From positions 1 through 41,769 of IMG/VR virus record IMGVR_UViG_3300042868_001906: a stretch of DNA of 41,769 bases; one strand, written 5' to 3'. Below, piece by piece: positions 1,923 to 41,051 of the stretch; positions within the stretch are counted from its first letter, which is position 1; each line of letters opens with the position of its first letter. Under the pieces are notes generated by a model. That model did not search any database. It was given only the letters and a program-made list of their open reading frames with translations, and was not told the DNA's origin. The stretch comes from a virus. Both the position numbers and the translations under genes were made by a program.

Positions 1923-3482
1923 TTAATTCAATACAGCAAAGAAGGGCAAGGGGGCAATGTATTCCTCATGGTCTCGCATATGATTCTCAAGGTTATAGTG
2001 ATAATCACTCAGAACCTGCAAAATACGTACAATCAATAAGCTAGCCATGACCAAATCGTCAGTATCGCCTATTTTTGCCGCATAACTTCCCCCGGATGCT
2101 ACAAATGCTTTTAATTCTGAAATTAATCCAAAGCTATGAATAGTCATCTTTTTGCTCTCTACTAGTGTTTTAAACTTAGCACAGGCTGCGAGTTTGCTCT
2201 TGTTAGTAGTGTTGAATCCCCTACGATTCTTCCCGGCTTCGCTCAAAAAGATACCAGGAATATTACTCTCACCGTATTCATTTAACGAAACAATAGCTGC
2301 CTCACCGATACTGTTATTTTCTATTGAATAGTACAAACTGTTTGGTTCGTTCGTGCATTCAACAATGTATTTGTTAATTTGTGCAATCAATTTAATCTGT
2401 GTAGGAATATCTGTCTTGTTGTGCTTCCACTCACCTATTTGAGTCGTAGTATTAGCTTCAAAGATTTGAATAGCTGCCGGGTCACCACCTGTACCTAAGC
2501 TTGGGTCTAGTGCAACTGCATATATGTTCCCCTTCTCAGGCTTCTTATACCAACGAACTTGTCCCATCCTAGTGGCAGGTTCTTTACCTTCTAGCATGAT
2601 TAGTGTGTTTGGATTGATAAGTGTTTCATCAGCAATAATGAACTCACAACCAATCTCTCGATTGAAACGATCCTCACCAAGTTGGGCCTTCATTTCGTCA
2701 GCCCACTTTTGATCTCGGCCGGGTTGTTCGGTCCAATAAGCACGATAGGATCTGAAACCGTTAACACCTATCTCTGTCTTGTTACCATACTCATCTTCTG
2801 TCTTGTTAGCACCCTTCCAGATCAAAGCAAACTGGTCTTCGTCACTGTTTGGAGTACTTGTGATAATTGCTTTACCACCAGTTGACAATGTAGGCGTAAT
2901 GGCAGTCCAGAATTCTGTCGCAATAGAGGGTCGCACGAATGCGAACTCATCAAGGTATAGTAGAGAGATAGACATACCACGACCTGTGTTTTCGGTTGTT
3001 GTAGCTGAAACAATACGTGATCCGTTTTCAAAGTCAAGTGAGCCTTTGTTATACGTAGTAACACCGGCTTTAATATGGTCGGGACATGCTTCGTATGCAT
3101 AACGAATACGTTGCATAATCTCTTGAGCACCTGTATACTTGTGCGCCGCAATAAGAATTGTACTGTCGGGTACAAACATAGCATACCACAAGAGATAACC
3201 TGCAGCCGAAGTTGACTTACCTGACTGACGAGGCATTAATGATATGGAAAAACGATATCTATGATATGTATCAATTAATCGTTCTTGATATTCCCACGGG
3301 TGATACAACATTGAACCCCTAGTAGGGTGTTGTATGTAAAAGAAGTTATCCATGAAGTATAGATATCCCGTGTTAGGATCGCAACACTTTATAAATTCTT
3401 GCAGATCCTTATCAGTTTTAAATTGCGTCTTTTTATACGGATCTTTAACTAATGAAGGTGCATTGTTGGTAGGTTTACTCAT
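1923..3482 (-). CDS. terL: Phage terminase large subunit (gp17-like)
   Basis: This is the DNA-packaging motor, an ATPase plus headful nuclease, in 519 residues, which fits T4-type large terminases that are somewhat shorter than T4 gp17. The ATPase half shows Walker A MPRQSGKST (83-91), Walker B LLYLDEF (174-180) and a coupling motif TSTPNS (208-213). The RNase H-like nuclease half shows acidic residues in ALDPS (D326), SIENN (E388) and DTDDLV (D475/D476). All expected catalytic residues are present, so it should be active. The gene downstream is 1..1901, and 26 bases upstream lies the 91-residue gene at 3509. It is the strongest single marker that the window is viral. Confidence 0.97.
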   Translation of the reverse strand: MSKPTNNAPSLVKDPYKKTQFKTDKDLQEFIKCCDPNTGYLYFMDNFFYIQHPTRGSMLYHPWEYQERLIDTYHRYRFSISLMPRQSGKSTSAAGYLLWYAMFVPDSTILIAAHKYTGAQEIMQRIRYAYEACPDHIKAGVTTYNKGSLDFENGSRIVSATTTENTGRGMSISLLYLDEFAFVRPSIATEFWTAITPTLSTGGKAIITSTPNSDEDQFALIWKGANKTEDEYGNKTEIGVNGFRSYRAYWTEQPGRDQKWADEMKAQLGEDRFNREIGCEFIIADETLINPNTLIMLEGKEPATRMGQVRWYKKPEKGNIYAVALDPSLGTGGDPAAIQIFEANTTTQIGEWKHNKTDIPTQIKLIAQINKYIVECTNEPNSLYYSIENNSIGEAAIVSLNEYGESNIPGIFLSEAGKNRRGFNTTNKSKLAACAKFKTLVESKKMTIHSFGLISELKAFVASGGSYAAKIGDTDDLVMASLLIVRILQVLSDYHYNLENHMRDHEEYIAPLPFFAVLN

Positions 3483-19147: not shown

Positions 19148-19642
19148 TCACAAATTATGTTGTATGCAAAATTCTTTGACAGTTTCATAGTCAACTTCCA
19201 AATCTATGATACCAACTGTAAGTAAGTATCGGGTGTTATCGCTTAAGTTTAGCACTGCATGGGGCTTTGAGGTATTAAAAATATAATACGATGAATCTTC
19301 ATACATTAATTGTTCAATCTTAGTTACTTCAGCACTTGCTGTTTTTTCACCAAACATCGTATAGCTATCTGGACCTTCAAGCATCATATTCACGGCAACA
19401 TGCCTTGATGCATCAACATGGAAAGCATAATAATTCTTAGGATCCATCTTGAATATTCCGGGCTTGATAGTAAACCTCTTACTCAACGCTACAACTAATG
19501 GATCGTTTTCTAGTATGTGCATAGGGACAGGCATGACATTAAATCCCCGTAGCAACATCCATTCACCGGGGTGCGAATTCTTTGCTAGTGATATTAATTC
19601 TTCTTTGATGAGGCTTTTGGAGTTTAACTTATAATGTGTCAT
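19148..19642 (-). CDS. Putative 2OG-Fe(II) oxygenase/hydroxylase-like protein
   Basis: 164 residues. A possible iron triad is visible: H75-V-D77 in AFHVDAS and H128 in SKPHAVLNL, with Arg138 in DNTRYLLTV suited to bind 2-oxoglutarate. Spacing and strand pattern resemble small aspartyl/asparaginyl or prolyl hydroxylase-like proteins. Substrate unknown. It lies immediately downstream of the tmRNA terminator. No Shine-Dalgarno sequence is seen, and a TATAAATA box ends 4 bases before the ATG, so its expression may be late and leaderless. Confidence 0.65.
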   Translation of the reverse strand: MTHYKLNSKSLIKEELISLAKNSHPGEWMLLRGFNVMPVPMHILENDPLVVALSKRFTIKPGIFKMDPKNYYAFHVDASRHVAVNMMLEGPDSYTMFGEKTASAEVTKIEQLMYEDSSYYIFNTSKPHAVLNLSDNTRYLLTVGIIDLEVDYETVKEFCIQHNL

Positions 19643-19654: not shown

Positions 19655-19657
19655 AGG

Positions 19658-19681
19658 GAAAAGGCACCGAAGTGCCTTTTC
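19658..19681 (-). terminator. UUCG-loop terminator after tmRNA
   Basis: A perfect 10-bp stem, GAAAAGGCAC with GTGCCTTTTC, closed by TTCG on the minus strand. The A and U tracts are built into the stem. It ends the tmRNA transcript. The plus strand has the same stem and could also terminate. Confidence 0.9.
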
Positions 19682-19908
19682 TGAGTTTCTGTTACTAGGT
19701 ATGTCTTACCCTAGGATGCTTTTATCAAGCAGCCAATGCGTAAACTGAATCGTTTGCATTTATGGTTTTTTGCTTCTACGACCGGGACCAACGTCTTTCT
19801 ATGCTATGAGCATAACGACTATTATATTTTCCCCCAATCCTAACGGCTTCTACATTGCCGGACTGTCCATTTCAATACTTGTGACCCTGTCGAAACCATG
19901 GCAGGCCC
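19682..19908 (-). ncRNA. ssrA: Permuted tmRNA, coding (5') piece
   Basis: On the minus strand the mature 5' end GGGCCTG begins at 19908 and is followed by GGTTTCGACAGG, the near-invariant tmRNA D-loop signature. GGGCCUG pairs with CAGGUCC of the acceptor piece (20057-20063) in seven pairs, with G3-U70 as the alanine identity pair. ACAGUC (19861-19866) pairs with GACUGU (20109-20114) as part of helix 2. CGGC/GCCG plus AAU/AUU form a PK1-type pseudoknot (19836-19860), followed by UAGUC and the resume codon at 19816. A downstream hairpin (CUAGGGUA with UACCUAG) resembles later tmRNA helices. The 3' end is approximate. Confidence 0.93.
19799..19816 (-). other. tmRNA resume ORF encoding VMLIA then stop
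   Basis: Directly after AATAGTC the minus strand reads GTT ATG CTC ATA GCA TAG. With the alanine carried by tmRNA the tag would be A-VMLIA, much shorter than the 8-15 residues usual in bacteria, but with a small hydrophobic end resembling the LAA/LVA degrons recognised by ClpXP. The frame is set by the conserved UAGUC before the resume codon. The tag lies in a small hairpin (UAUGC with GCAUA). Confidence 0.8.
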
Positions 19909-19921
19909 ATCATAAGAAAAC

Positions 19922-20038
19922 TTAACCTAAATCGTGTAGGATACGCCAGTCGGTATCAGTAAATTTATACATTCCAAAACGCTTGCCGCTAGGCAATCTT
20001 TTACCGCCATTCAAATAATACAATAATTTAGGTTTCAT
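19922..20038 (-). CDS. 38-codon ORF inside the tmRNA intervening segment
   Basis: The 144-base segment between the CCA end of the acceptor piece and the mature 5' end of the coding piece holds an ATG-TAA frame of 38 codons, starting MKPKLLYYLNGGKRLP and containing FGMYKFTDTDWRILHDL. The composition is protein-like, with a basic first half and a FTDTDW end. The ribosome-binding site is weak (AAGAAAG). Nothing equivalent is expected in ordinary permuted tmRNA genes, where this loop is non-coding and removed. Function unknown. Confidence 0.55.
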   Translation of the reverse strand: MKPKLLYYLNGGKRLPSGKRFGMYKFTDTDWRILHDLG

Positions 20039-20052
20039 TTCAAACTTTCTTA

Positions 20053-20121
20053 TGGTGGACCTGGCGGGAGTCGAACCCGCGTCCAAGATCCTTTTCTGTC
20101 TACTTCATACAGTCTTAACTT
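20053..20121 (-). ncRNA. ssrA: Permuted tmRNA, acceptor (3') piece, copy 1
   Basis: On the minus strand this segment ends CAGGTCC-A-CCA with the CCA encoded (terminal A at 20053). The T arm is GCGGG-TTCGACT-CCCGC, with a canonical T-loop. GACUGU pairs with the coding piece. It precedes the coding piece in the transcript, which defines a circularly permuted gene. Its 5' end is set approximately from the promoter at 20124-20152. Confidence 0.92.
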
Positions 20122-20123
20122 AC

Positions 20124-20152
20124 ATTATATAACATCACATAGTTGATATCAA
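20124..20152 (-). promoter_or_regulatory. tmRNA promoter, TTGATA-17-TATAAT, under an 18-bp palindrome
   Basis: TTGATA (20147-20152) and TATAAT (20124-20129) on the minus strand are spaced by 17 bases, ending just before the tmRNA acceptor piece. The -35 lies within a perfect 18-bp palindrome, ATAGTTGATATCAACTAT (20139-20156), which could be an operator for a dimeric repressor. Confidence 0.85.
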
Positions 20153-21988: not shown

Positions 21989-22056
21989 TGGTGGACCTGG
22001 CGGGCACTGCCCCCGCGTCTTGAACTTATTTCTCATCGCTTCATACAGCAATAACT
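21989..22056 (-). ncRNA. Orphan tmRNA acceptor piece, copy 2
   Basis: The minus strand ends CAGGTCC-A-CCA, identical to copy 1, and shares GTAAGTTA near its 5' end and GTATGAAG in the middle. The T arm is GCGGG-GGCAGTG-CCCGC: the stem is intact but the loop lacks the TTCGANY sequence. No coding piece follows; the next gene starts 12 bases later. It has its own promoter (22060-22088). It may be an alternative acceptor for the coding piece at 19908, or a decaying duplicate. Confidence 0.85.
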
Positions 22057-27073: not shown

Positions 27074-28570
27074 TTATGAAATGACTTTGACGTTATAAAG
27101 TTTTTCAAATCTGTCAGCATCTTCTCTGTCGTTGACCATCGGCTCACCGCGTATGTTCAATGATGTATTCAGTAGCATCGGGCAGCCGGTCAAGACATAC
27201 CATTTCTCTAGTAGTTCTCTGATTCCGCTTCCATCTTTTGGTACTGTCTGAACCCGACTAGTCCCATCATTATGAACGATAGCAGGAAATAACTGAGGAT
27301 GCCTGCAACGAGCGATGACTTGCATATACCTACTATTATCGAAACCACGAGGCATATCAAAATAGTCATCAACATATTCCTCCAGAATGACCGGCGCAAA
27401 TGGTCTGAACTTTTGTCTTCGTTTGATTTCATTAACTTTGTCCTTTATTTCTTGTCCTCTGGGGTCTGCAAGTAAGCTTCTATTTCCAAGGGCTCTCGGC
27501 CCGAACTCAGCACGACCACTAGCAACCCCAACAATCCTATCACTAAGCAAACGATCAAGAATATCATTAGTGGGATAGCTGCCTTCAATACGATGACCAA
27601 TAAAGCTATTACACCAGTTAACACGCTTACGATAACCGAGGCAGGCAGCGCCCAAACTAGAACCAGCATCACCAGGATTAGGCATAATCCAAATATTCTC
27701 ATAGTAATCTCCTAATAATCTATTTGCTAAACAATTTAATGCAACTCCACCACCATACACTAAGTTCTTGCTTTTACCTAGACTTCTTGCTTTACTCATG
27801 ACATTCTTAATCAATTGTTCTGCAATGAGTTGTGCGCTAAGTGCAATGTCCATGTCATCTGCACCCGCTAAGAACGTATCCGATACACCAGTATGTAGAT
27901 TGTCTTTGAATCTTATTTCACTATACGATTCAATCAATGTGTTTGACATTTCTTTCAGTGGTTTATCTTTACCGTAAGCTGCCATACCCATTAGTATGTA
28001 TTCTTCATCTAGTGGGCGTAGACCTACACGTTCAGTCATTGCTGAATAAAACAATCCAATGCTGTCCGGATATCTCTGTCCCCACAACTTCTTGTACGTT
28101 GCGATACCATTCTTATCGTAATACGCATTCCAAATACTAATCGTGTCAAACTCGCCGATAGCATCAATCACAACTACAGTGGCATCATCATACGGACTTG
28201 TTTGAAACCCTGCAGCCGCATGACTCAAGTGATGATTGTGAGTGTGAATCTTACCACCTCTACCGTCTTGTAACTTATGAAGTAAACCATCACCGATGAT
28301 TTCAGTAGTAAACAAGTTAGATAGATTTGGTTTCTCTCCCGAGCGCAATTGACGTAGGAACTTCATCCATGGACGTTCGTAGTAATGAATCTCTACTTCG
28401 CTATTATCACAGTATTTCAATGCATCTTCAACAATACCCATTGACAAATGTTTGTCATGTTTATGCTTACTGTAGCGTTCACTGTGACCCGCAAAGACTA
28501 TGTTACCATTGCTATCAATGACGCTTAAGGCTGCGTCATGGAAGCCTGCGCTTATACCAATGTAGTTCAT
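27074..28570 (-). CDS. NodU/CmcH-type carbamoyltransferase
   Basis: 498 residues. These enzymes transfer a carbamoyl group from carbamoyl phosphate to a sugar or antibiotic hydroxyl through a carbamoyl-adenylate. Landmarks are MNYIGISAGFHDAAL (1-15), HNHHLSHAA (111-119, metal-binding His cluster), VVVIDAIGEFDT, YGGGVALNCLANR, PNPGDAGSSLGAA, FGPRALGNRSLLADPR and the C-terminal LNTSLNIRGEPMV. All core motifs are present, and the length is a little under the usual 540-600. It is coupled to a 32-residue gene by ATGA. The product is probably a carbamoylated sugar. Confidence 0.93.
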   Translation of the reverse strand: MNYIGISAGFHDAALSVIDSNGNIVFAGHSERYSKHKHDKHLSMGIVEDALKYCDNSEVEIHYYERPWMKFLRQLRSGEKPNLSNLFTTEIIGDGLLHKLQDGRGGKIHTHNHHLSHAAAGFQTSPYDDATVVVIDAIGEFDTISIWNAYYDKNGIATYKKLWGQRYPDSIGLFYSAMTERVGLRPLDEEYILMGMAAYGKDKPLKEMSNTLIESYSEIRFKDNLHTGVSDTFLAGADDMDIALSAQLIAEQLIKNVMSKARSLGKSKNLVYGGGVALNCLANRLLGDYYENIWIMPNPGDAGSSLGAACLGYRKRVNWCNSFIGHRIEGSYPTNDILDRLLSDRIVGVASGRAEFGPRALGNRSLLADPRGQEIKDKVNEIKRRQKFRPFAPVILEEYVDDYFDMPRGFDNSRYMQVIARCRHPQLFPAIVHNDGTSRVQTVPKDGSGIRELLEKWYVLTGCPMLLNTSLNIRGEPMVNDREDADRFEKLYNVKVIS

Positions 28571-37586: not shown

Positions 37587-38555
37587 TTATTTATTTCTTA
37601 TAACTTTGGGTATGATAATATCAGTTCCGCAAATACAATGCTCTTTCCTACAAATAATCTTCTTAGGCCCAATGTTACTTACGTCTTCTAATATATGCCC
37701 TACAGTGCCACCCATGCCACAGCTTGCAAAGCTTACCATGCCTACAGGGTTGATGAAAATACTATCACCTACATTGCATTGCCATCCACTAAAGAAGTTC
37801 TGTCTATCTACAATGATTTCATTACTGTTTGTAGGGCAAACATAATCATCCTCATATCTGTTATAGCTTACGCATTTGCTGGGATTATACGGCTTAGGCA
37901 CTGTAAAGTTCATCTCAGTGTTGTGTTCATTGAGGAACTTTTCTTTCTCAGGATCTTTATACTGCCAAGGACCTGCATTAACACTTAATTCATCATACAA
38001 CGGAGTCCATTCTAATACGTAATTAGGCATTACTGTTTTCAAATGCTCACCGTATTCTACAATCTCCCAGAATCTTTCTTCGTGCATCAGCATCTTTGTA
38101 CAAAGGTAATTCACTTTGTCACATAAGAAGATATTGTTTTCTTTGTACTTTTCTTTGTTACTGAATTCAACATGGAAGCTTGCAACAATGTCATCAAACA
38201 AATGATAGTGTTTCTGCCACCATGCTAATGGACGACTTAGATTAGTATTGACTGCTAGAGTACAGTCAGGAATCTCTTGCTTTAACCATTCACAGATAGG
38301 AATGAAGTTACGCCAAGCTGTAGGTTCGCCACCGCTAAAGAAGAATTTAAAGTTCTTATACCCTACTTCTTTGTAGCGGTTGATTATAACTCCCAAGTTC
38401 TCAATGTACTTGTCTAAGTTACCATCATTGGGATTCTCTCCTCCCCAATTGCCCGGATTGCAATAGCTACATTTGAAGTTACAATAGTTGTTGACTTGCC
38501 ATGTTACTGCGATGTACGGTTCAGGGGCTTCAATTGCAATTAGCTTTCTGCCCAT
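37587..38555 (-). CDS. Radical SAM protein (322 residues)
   Basis: The signature NNYCNFKCSYC (CX3CX2C, about 22-32) is followed by FFFSGGEPTAW (about 67-77) and several later Cys residues (SKCVSYNRYEDDYVCP, GWQCN, SFASCGMGG, RKEHCICG). These could bind additional iron-sulfur clusters. It differs from the four twitch-type proteins in having the radical SAM core at the very N-terminus. Substrate unknown. It overlaps the gene upstream by 16 bases. Confidence 0.88.
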   Translation of the reverse strand: MGRKLIAIEAPEPYIAVTWQVNNYCNFKCSYCNPGNWGGENPNDGNLDKYIENLGVIINRYKEVGYKNFKFFFSGGEPTAWRNFIPICEWLKQEIPDCTLAVNTNLSRPLAWWQKHYHLFDDIVASFHVEFSNKEKYKENNIFLCDKVNYLCTKMLMHEERFWEIVEYGEHLKTVMPNYVLEWTPLYDELSVNAGPWQYKDPEKEKFLNEHNTEMNFTVPKPYNPSKCVSYNRYEDDYVCPTNSNEIIVDRQNFFSGWQCNVGDSIFINPVGMVSFASCGMGGTVGHILEDVSNIGPKKIICRKEHCICGTDIIIPKVIRNK

Positions 38556-39811
38556 TCGTACACCTCTCTGAGTTCTGGTATTACATCTTCAATCTTTTCT
38601 TTTCTAAATTCATTCAATTCATCATTGAATTTCTTGAATTCTAAGATTCCGCCTTTGTTTTCTTCACCCACATTCAAATTGTAGATAATCATTTTGAATC
38701 CATTGTGAATGTCAGGGTTGTCTTTGTAACGATCCTGATAGATACGATACAATTCAGTTAGTCTACGCTTTACATGTTTAGGAAGAATCATGATATTTGC
38801 ATACCATGGGTTAGTTGCTAGGTTGAATCGTGGGCTAGATTTAGTGTCAATAAAGCCTTCATCTAACATGTAATCAAAGAAGTCAGGGAAGTCAAACACA
38901 TTCCATATACTGATTGTAGGAGTAATTTGAAACTCAGCGTGAGGCACTTGTTCTTTCAGTGTGCGAATGTTTTTCACGATTCGTTCCCAATCAGTACCTT
39001 TGCGGATGACTTCAGCAACATCACCCTCAGCATCTAAGCTAGCCCAGATTTTGAGTTTAGGGAACTTCTTCCAATAGCCAATCAAGTCTTTGTCCTTGAA
39101 CTTCAAGCTACTGAAATTGGTTGTGTATGTTAATTCAATCTGTTCGTTCAACCCGTTTTCAATCCAATAATCTAGACACTCATAATGCTCAGGAGTAATG
39201 ATGATTTCACCACCCGCAAAGTATACTTCTAATACGTCTTTAAGATATGGCTTTAGTTTGTTCATAAAGTTCATTTCTTCTGACGCATTAATCACAATCT
39301 TCTTAGTGCCAAAGTACTTTTGATACTCGTCAACACCCATTCTATCTACGAATTCTTGTGCCCATAGACTAGAGCAGCCGGGACCGCAACTACGACATTT
39401 CATGTTGCAAATGCTACTGAATCGTAGATCCATGTACTTCATTTTGAATTCAGAAATCTCACCGTCATCACTAGTTGTTTCACTAATATCTTTAACGTAT
39501 TCTAATCCTCTACGCTTGTTATGACTTTGACGCATTGTCCATGTGCCCATCAATTCTAAGTCATAGCATCTTTTACATGCTTCTACAGGCTCATCGTTAA
39601 GCATCTGTGTACGCATCTTCTTATAATCTTCACTATTCATCATCTGAATAATGGATTCATTGTTGTTGATATCTGCTACAGGTTTGTTACTGTCAGCAAT
39701 ACAGCATGGCATTACACGACCATCAGGCCATGAATGGAAATGCACCCAAGGCAATACACAAAAGTGTTTGCCATGCTTAACTAAGTTTTCTACTACGATT
39801 GGATCTTGCAT
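38540..39811 (-). CDS. Twitch/SPASM-like radical SAM protein
   Basis: 423 residues. N-terminal Cys segment FCVLPWVHF...RVMPCCIA and EACKRCYDLE, then SSICNMKCRSCGPGCSSLW (CX3CX2C, about 135-153) and YFAGGEI in place of GGEP. It is paralogous to its upstream neighbours at 39813 and 41048. The two extra Cys residues after the core motif (CGPGC) are unusual in the set. Substrate unknown. Confidence 0.88.
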   Translation of the reverse strand: MQDPIVVENLVKHGKHFCVLPWVHFHSWPDGRVMPCCIADSNKPVADINNNESIIQMMNSEDYKKMRTQMLNDEPVEACKRCYDLELMGTWTMRQSHNKRRGLEYVKDISETTSDDGEISEFKMKYMDLRFSSICNMKCRSCGPGCSSLWAQEFVDRMGVDEYQKYFGTKKIVINASEEMNFMNKLKPYLKDVLEVYFAGGEIIITPEHYECLDYWIENGLNEQIELTYTTNFSSLKFKDKDLIGYWKKFPKLKIWASLDAEGDVAEVIRKGTDWERIVKNIRTLKEQVPHAEFQITPTISIWNVFDFPDFFDYMLDEGFIDTKSSPRFNLATNPWYANIMILPKHVKRRLTELYRIYQDRYKDNPDIHNGFKMIIYNLNVGEENKGGILEFKKFNDELNEFRKEKIEDVIPELREVYEWAES

Positions 39812-39812
39812 A

Positions 39813-41051
39813 TTATTCTGTTAATTCTCTCAAGCTATTTAATTCGGGGAATATTTCCCATAAACTTTCATTTCTAATTCTATCAATCGAACCCGTATGT
39901 TGCATGAAAATATCTTTGTTTTCTGTCCATGAGTCACTACTAGAAGCAAAATTAACAGCGTCTGTGATTAGTCGTGATAAGCTTGTTCCATCTTGTGTGT
40001 TATTGTTTGCCCACGCCATTGCTTTACTAGCGGCTTCAACTTTCATTGATTTGGGCAATGATTTTGCACAGTAATAGCTAGGATGCACTGCGAGATATAG
40101 ACTATGGTACCAATCTTCTCTGCGAATGATTCCCTTATCTTTCAGATATTGATAGAATTCGCCGATTGTACTGTAATTGAAGATACTGAACACTGTGTTC
40201 ATTTGGAATGAAACATAGTCTAAGTCACGGAACTTTAACAAATTAGATTCAACTACACCCCAATCAGTTCCACTACGCAACCATTCTGCTCGTTCGCCAT
40301 AATGATCTACTGAGCAGGATAACTCAATCTTCTTAAAGTGTTTCCACATGTCTAACAAATCATAGTCTTTGAACTTGATATTGCTAGCGTTCGTGTTGTA
40401 TCTGAGCGTAATATCAGTACGGCCTTTGCGAATCATCTCCTCAAGCATGATATAATGCTCTTCGGTTAGTGTAGGCTCGCCACCTGCAAAGTAAGCTAGG
40501 TCAATATGTTCTACTTGCTCTAATACTTCATTTAGTAGATTACCTTTTGAATCAGCATGAATTACAATAGGGTGCTTAGGATCATGATTGGCTCGCATTT
40601 CTGCTCCCCATTGACTACTGAATTCACTACCACATGTTCTGCATTTGAAGTTGCAAATGTTGCTGAAACGAATGTCAAAATAGTGCATCTTAAAGTCAGG
40701 AACTGTTCCGTCTTCTAATGTTGTAGGAACAATTTCATCAAATCGTTTGCCAAATTGTTCTTTGCTGTAGTTTCTAAAACTATGCGGACCTGAATCTTCA
40801 TGCTTGTAGCAGAAATCACACATTGAATTAGGCTTGTCATTCAACATATCTAAACGTAATTGTTTCATTTGCGGATTATTGAATGCTTCTTTTAGTGTCG
40901 TTTCTTTAGTATTTCCGTACGGCTTTGTATAGTCATTTGAACAGCATGGGTAGATATCTCCCTTGGGTGTTACGTTCAAATGCATCCAAGGAAACATGCA
41001 AAATGTTTTGCTTTCATTAAGCAAATATTCTTTGTTTAAGTTAATTGTCAT
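39813..41051 (-). CDS. Twitch/SPASM-like radical SAM protein
   Basis: 412 residues. FCMFPWMHLNV...IYPCCSND (17-41) and SMCDFCYKHED precede SNICNFKCRTCGSEF (CX3CX2C) and YFAGGEPTLTEEHY. It closely resembles the truncated gene at 41048 (both have TEEHY-ILEEMIR-GRTDI and VDHYG-RAE), showing recent tandem duplication. The upstream gene overlaps it by 4 bases. Confidence 0.9.
   Translation of the reverse strand: MTINLNKEYLLNESKTFCMFPWMHLNVTPKGDIYPCCSNDYTKPYGNTKETTLKEAFNNPQMKQLRLDMLNDKPNSMCDFCYKHEDSGPHSFRNYSKEQFGKRFDEIVPTTLEDGTVPDFKMHYFDIRFSNICNFKCRTCGSEFSSQWGAEMRANHDPKHPIVIHADSKGNLLNEVLEQVEHIDLAYFAGGEPTLTEEHYIMLEEMIRKGRTDITLRYNTNASNIKFKDYDLLDMWKHFKKIELSCSVDHYGERAEWLRSGTDWGVVESNLLKFRDLDYVSFQMNTVFSIFNYSTIGEFYQYLKDKGIIRREDWYHSLYLAVHPSYYCAKSLPKSMKVEAASKAMAWANNNTQDGTSLSRLITDAVNFASSSDSWTENKDIFMQHTGSIDRIRNESLWEIFPELNSLRELTE

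Follow-up and report, generated by a model that had tools for sequence, protein, structure and literature searches.

The locus considered here raises the question of whether the gene of a phage tmRNA can, in addition to the tmRNA itself, host a gene for a protein. The analysis covered the whole 41,769-nt stretch of the IMG/VR record IMGVR_UViG_3300042868_001906 (hereafter, the window), in which one complete permuted tmRNA was found, on the minus strand. Positions 20114–19725 matched the Rfam covariance model RF04321 over its full length (model positions 1–213), with a score of 112.4 bits (E 2.6e-21) against a gathering cutoff of 47 bits. An earlier note, made from the sequence alone, had read the region as a phage permuted tmRNA with a very short tag and had proposed the covariance model as a check; the match bears out the permuted phage tmRNA, while the five-codon tag was not upheld. 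The acceptor piece lies ahead of the coding piece, and the 7-bp acceptor stem GGGCCTG/CAGGTCC with its G3-U70 pair, the CCA end at 20053, and the signature GGTTTCGACAGG from position 19908 are all present, as the note had described. What the phage encodes here is a tmRNA of the circularly permuted (two-piece) kind. The acceptor piece consists of a helix-2 strand, the T-arm GCGGG-TTCGACT-CCCGC, the CAGGTCC acceptor strand, an A, and CCA; its acceptor half proper occupies positions 20053–20083, and no match to the acceptor pattern was expected by chance in the window. The coding half, which begins with GGGCCTGCCATGGTTTCGACAGGG, comprises the GGGCCTG acceptor strand, the D-loop GGTTTCGACAGGG, the PK1 region, and the tag frame. 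Two-piece tmRNAs of phages are already described as a kind, 53 of them in PMC9004378, and phage tmRNAs are also covered in PMC11915505. Seizure of ribosome rescue by the phage through such an RNA is possible in general terms. Two features had been overlooked in the first reading, namely an ORF in the IVS between the two pieces and a second, lone acceptor half. The features of the locus are summarized in Table 1.

Table 1. Features of the permuted tmRNA locus and of the second acceptor half in the window.
Feature	Position	Strand	Basis
Acceptor (5') piece	20053..20114	-	RF04321 alignment; chance expectation for pattern 0
IVS, 144 nt	19909..20052	-	between CCA (20053) and GGG (19908)
Nested small protein gene, 38 aa, MKPKLLYYLNGGKRLPSGKRFGMYKFTDTDWRILHDLG, stop	20038-19922	-	codon usage and homologues
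Coding (3') piece	19680..19908, 3' end approximate	-	aligned to RF04321 and to 14 relatives
VMLIA, stop; part of optional hairpin insert, not tag	19816-19799	-	alignment with relatives
Tag frame ANDSVYALAA, then second stop (TGA TAA)	19757-19725	-	Rfam alignment; aligned with relatives' tags
Sigma-70-type promoter TTGATA-17-TATAAT, adjoining the acceptor piece upstream	20124..20152	-	11/12 consensus positions
Terminator-like hairpin AAAAGGCACTTCGGTGCCTTTT, after tmRNA	19657..19682	-	hairpin scan
Lone second acceptor half, alphaproteobacterial-type T-loop GGCAGTG	21989..22019	-	pattern match, 0 expected
60-aa ORF, starting 11 nt past the lone CCA	21977-21795	-	tblastn

The tag frame reads GCA AAC GAT TCA GTT TAC GCA TTG GCT GCT TGA, with an alanine resume codon and an ALAA-type end, as in other permuted tmRNAs, and the tags of relatives that align with it are ANDSQFALAA and similar. 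Judged by this alignment, the tag of the window tmRNA is a standard ten-residue ANDxxxALAA degron. The five-codon tag VMLIA, which had been thought to hijack proteolysis, deserves practically no credence. Its reading frame does exist, and tags of 2 aa have been reported for some tmRNAs (PMC11915505); however, the frame sits in an optional hairpin insert of ~42 nt, which most of the 14 closest relatives lack and which in L007 does not retain VMLIA, whereas the conserved frame aligned by Rfam is ANDSVYALAA. The tag given by ARAGORN, ETQKRHFGAFSLINNA, was rejected as wrong, since it extends beyond the terminator-like hairpin.

A long stem, TAAGAAAG.../...CTTATGAT, closes the IVS and is continuous with the acceptor stem; the predicted fold of the IVS has an energy of -59.3 kcal/mol (z -2.4). 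The ORF inside the IVS opens with an ATG 14 nt past the CCA, preceded by a weak SD-like site (AAGAAAG), which the fold prediction places in a paired region, and it ends 16 nt ahead of the cleavage site; hence, the ORF is not nonstop. A frame of this length was open in 6% of shuffles. The codon log-odds of the ORF, calculated after training on 32 ORFs of the window, was 13.85, higher than in all 1022 open non-coding frames tested and than in 89% of true coding stretches of equal length, and the remaining five frames of the same stretch scored -8 to -34. The first, stricter homology searches with the ORF gave no matches, but a looser, degenerate peptide pattern retrieved 13 viral homologues, of which 3 lie inside the IVSs of other tmRNAs (L365, L367, and L372) and 10 are free-standing genes. 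Across 12 sequences, 23 of the 38 positions were invariant, and pN/pS was 0.21–0.52 against all homologues except the near-identical L365/L367. The AlphaFold2 model of the protein was a small three-strand structure (pLDDT 87), for which a fold search returned no significant match. An IVS-spanning ORF with a coding signature and homologues is one mark of what we propose to call an IVS protein cassette, and on these two grounds the window ORF is a small protein gene nested in the tmRNA. A homology search with the neighboring protein (19148-19642) yielded no related loci.

Pattern scans of IMG/VR provided 244 distinct permuted viral tmRNAs for comparison. An IVS-spanning ATG ORF was present in 121 of them and these ORFs formed 54 sequence families, 22 of them multi-member; some of the scan patterns selected for an SD and ATG, so that 121/244 is not an estimate of frequency. 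Among the IVSs of at least 75 nt collected without selection for an ORF, 35 of 113 contained a spanning ORF with an SD and ATG, compared with 4.2 ± 1.9 when the interiors were shuffled; among those of at least 130 nt, the values were 20 of 33 and 0.66. The cargo included a thioredoxin (L107; PF00085, 75 bits), a DUF2061 protein (L059; 73 bits), a PGDYG protein (L184; 27.8 bits), all three recognized with Pfam, and a homing-endonuclease-like protein (L205; PHROG phrog_655, 57 bits), and many cargos were peptides of 22–26 aa resembling membrane segments. The pooled pN/pS was 0.33 (18 families), with several families at 0.04–0.22. The RF04321 cutoff was passed by 43 of the 50 records examined, nearly all of which bore cargo. 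The layout of the IVS was stereotyped: an SD, TAAGGA, usually comes first after the CCA (one scan pattern enriched for it), the ATG mostly follows 9–15 nt past the CCA, and in 61 of 96 cases a TGA stands 4 nt ahead of the coding piece. In 20 of the 121 ORFs, the stop codon lies within the mature tmRNA. Some of the counted ORFs may be due to chance, especially those of 22–30 aa and those ending in the tmRNA (e.g., L073/L117/L122, which were clustered with L008 partly through tail residues encoded by the tmRNA). All examples of cargo are metagenomic, and the examined isolate phages showed none: in X1, Rb1, QDWS359, QDWS595, DLP_6, Bhz51, BUCT628, and XM05, the IVS measures 26–126 nt and carries no recognized cargo ORF. 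Homologues of several cargos were sought in isolate phages and none were found; the thioredoxin has only distant relatives there. In addition, some IVSs without clear cargo (L092, L119, L073, L117, and L122) contain the tRNA T-arm-like sequence GGTTCGA(T/G)TCC, perhaps a relic of tRNA genes in the IVS.

Bacterial permuted tmRNAs served as a control. In 28 of them, taken from genomes of one phylum (that of a betaproteobacterial MAG), the IVS had a median length of 30.5 nt and none contained a spanning ORF. The pattern of an SD and ATG past the tmRNA 3' end gave 3 matches in 257 Gb of genomes from bacteria and archaea, all attributable to chance and none a tmRNA, while a related pattern gave 77 matches in viral contigs. 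Thus, within the limits of these samples, the cargo-bearing IVS looks phage-specific.

Comparison of whole loci pointed to exchange of the cargo. L040 and L069 share 99.9% identity in the 1000 nt upstream and 100% in the 1500 nt that begin with the coding piece, and the sole difference between the two compared loci is that their IVSs carry unrelated ORFs. The reverse situation was found for the window: its IVS is 97% identical to that of L365/L367 and 94% to that of L372, whereas outside the IVS the identity to L367 is 61% over ~100 nt on the acceptor side and 52% in the coding piece. The identical block shared with L367 runs from the T-arm to the D-loop. With different cargo in one backbone and one cargo in different backbones, the phage tmRNA IVS appears to be a site of exchangeable cassettes. 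The probable route is homologous recombination between tmRNA genes, in which the near-universal T-arm/acceptor and acceptor/D-loop flanks would act as homology arms, so that whole cassettes could be swapped and the tmRNA left unharmed. A separate observation concerned the elbow of the phage tmRNAs, where the T-loop and the head of the D-loop covary (TTCGACT with GGTTTCGAC, TGCGAAT with AATAGATTCGAC, and, in 31 of 31 cases, GGCAGTG with ACACAGGATCGAT; e.g., L009, L021, and L056). The pairing types differ even between otherwise similar coding pieces, such as those of the window and L009, and exchange of the elbow appears to involve both partners together.

Co-transcription is suggested by the promoter, which precedes the entire unit. 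Promoters with at most two mismatches were found within 170 nt upstream of 42 of 95 cargo-bearing tmRNAs and in 7 of 95 shuffled sequences. The hairpin after the coding piece is symmetrical and was reported by the scan on the plus strand; on the minus strand its T run is only 4 nt. Since the promoter precedes and the terminator-like hairpin follows, the acceptor piece, the nested gene, and the coding piece should all be part of a single precursor. In bacterial two-piece tmRNAs, the halves are freed by RNase P and tRNA 3'-processing. A permuted transcript is likewise cut by tRNA processing enzymes according to PMC11915505. In the phage, the host RNase P and tRNA 3'-processing enzymes would free both tmRNA pieces and the IVS, and the 38-aa protein could be made from the precursor, which would then double as mRNA, or from the excised IVS. 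In the predicted closing stem, the SD region pairs with the end of the ORF; therefore, translation and tmRNA maturation probably compete or alternate, and loading of ribosomes would be most favorable before synthesis of the 3' strand or after excision. We consider it highly probable that the window locus is an ordinary two-piece tmRNA with the tag ANDSVYALAA and a gene nested in its IVS, carried on a single precursor, and that this site holds swappable cargo across phages. The data establish the anatomy, the swaps of cassettes, and that the ORFs are coding in nature; co-transcription, processing, translation, and the route of recombination are our inferences. A stronger version, which we hold only tentatively and at less than even confidence, makes the pre-tmRNA both messenger and tmRNA precursor, the IVS a slot dedicated to the expression of small phage proteins and fed by recombination, and translation and maturation mutual regulators: the SD would be locked in the processing stem, and a stop at or beyond the RNase P site would make some of the messages substrates of trans-translation.

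The alternative that the cassette serves mainly to regulate the tmRNA itself appears rather unlikely, though it is the most probable of the rival explanations. Translation of the ORF would keep the closing stem open and delay maturation, and maturation would remove the stop codon or the end of the message, turning the ORF message into a trans-translation substrate. The SD within the closing stem, the TGA that in 61 of 96 cases stands only 4 nt short of the cleavage site, and the stops inside the mature tmRNA, for which RNase P cleavage would leave nonstop messages, agree with this scheme. The arfA mRNA, a nonstop message repressed by trans-translation (PMC10107115), is a possible parallel for the latter ORFs, being likewise a small ORF tied to trans-translation; however, arfA is located outside any tmRNA gene, and the window ORF retains its stop codon ahead of the cleavage site. 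Moreover, equally good stems occur in non-coding IVSs, and the free swapping of cargo, enzymes included, suggests passengers over a dedicated regulator.

Precise swaps of cassettes, together with the homing-endonuclease-like protein of L205, would also be compatible with selfish elements of the homing or recombining type, for which the tmRNA is a safe place to insert and which bring the phage no benefit. This explanation is improbable, because only 1 of the 54 families is recognizably endonuclease-like, the cargos are under purifying selection, and the family of the window ORF also occurs as free-standing phage genes. Still less probable is that the locus is an ordinary phage two-piece tmRNA in which the ORF is a functionless chance frame. 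IVSs devoid of an ORF are common among related phages, and an equally long frame is occasionally open in shuffled sequence; nevertheless, a chance frame is contradicted by the 13 homologues with free-standing genes among them, by the coding-like codon use of the window ORF, and by other cargos, which show purifying selection and contain known domains.

A search of the literature for ORFs in tmRNA IVSs, with most subscription papers outside its reach, found none, and we know of no earlier description of protein genes hosted within a tmRNA gene. What is unusual in the locus is the protein-coding cassette in the IVS, which the first reading had missed. The bacterial RF04321 tmRNAs of Alphaproteobacteria, Betaproteobacteria, and Cyanobacteria share with the window tmRNA the gene order, acceptor stem, T-arm, D-loop, and tag, as well as the absence of the IVS from the mature RNA (predicted for the window); unlike the window IVS, which is a protein gene, the sampled bacterial IVSs are short stems. 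The two-piece tmRNAs of phages, e.g., of the methylophage Melnitz, are likewise phage-encoded permuted ssrA genes, but the available text of PMC9004378 mentions no protein-coding IVS. A protein gene that lies inside the tmRNA gene and is removed on maturation is also known from group I intron tmRNAs, where it encodes a homing endonuclease (PMC11915505). There, however, a self-splicing intron interrupts the T-loop of a gene of standard order, whereas in the window the gene is permuted and the T-loop TTCGACT uninterrupted, and the phage cargo lies in the permutation IVS, without an intron, and is mostly non-endonuclease. The permuted tmRNA of GCA-2688965, with a tRNA-Ala gene in its IVS (PMC11915505), also contains a gene within the IVS, but it is a single case and an RNA gene, while the phage IVSs contain many unrelated protein genes. 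The cargo suggests why phages retain permuted tmRNAs, namely as a protected, promoter-driven cargo site. It also represents a hidden class of phage small proteins, as annotation can miss genes inside an RNA gene, and it makes the interplay of translation and trans-translation testable within one transcript.

The lone second acceptor half matched RF04321 with 24 bits at model positions 31-107, and no coding or D-loop half corresponding to it was found within the window. Its T-loop GGCAGTG was considered as a new class and rejected, since the alphaproteobacterial-type tmRNAs of the bacterial sample carry GGCGGTA/GGCAGTA and the type is thus known; a CDS-less inhibitory phage tmRNA of the DS6A type was likewise dismissed, given the acceptor half without its D-loop half. 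Over its N-terminal half, the adjacent 60-aa ORF has two homologues, the IVS ORF of L102 and, in L261, an ORF immediately preceding the coding piece (tblastn, 63% identity over 30–38 aa, E 1e-9 to 1e-11). The half and the ORF together are probably the remains of a second permuted tmRNA that was outlived by its cargo. At its C-terminus, the 60-aa ORF is similar to a different family of small phage proteins (YEWAWLK) that occurs in many of the collected contigs. An unannotated permuted tmRNA of the alpha type was also noticed in the isolate Erythrobacter phage XM05 (L333), with a gene for an HslV-family peptidase just downstream, an arrangement that possibly links tagging with phage-encoded proteolysis. 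As for the wider window, its terminase large subunit (1923-3482, minus strand) is 50% identical to those of PA5oct-like Pseudomonas jumbo phages, and the window probably represents only part of a larger phage genome. At 27074-28570 and 38540-41051 (minus strand), PHROGs also pointed to a Nol-like carbamoyltransferase and two radical SAM proteins.
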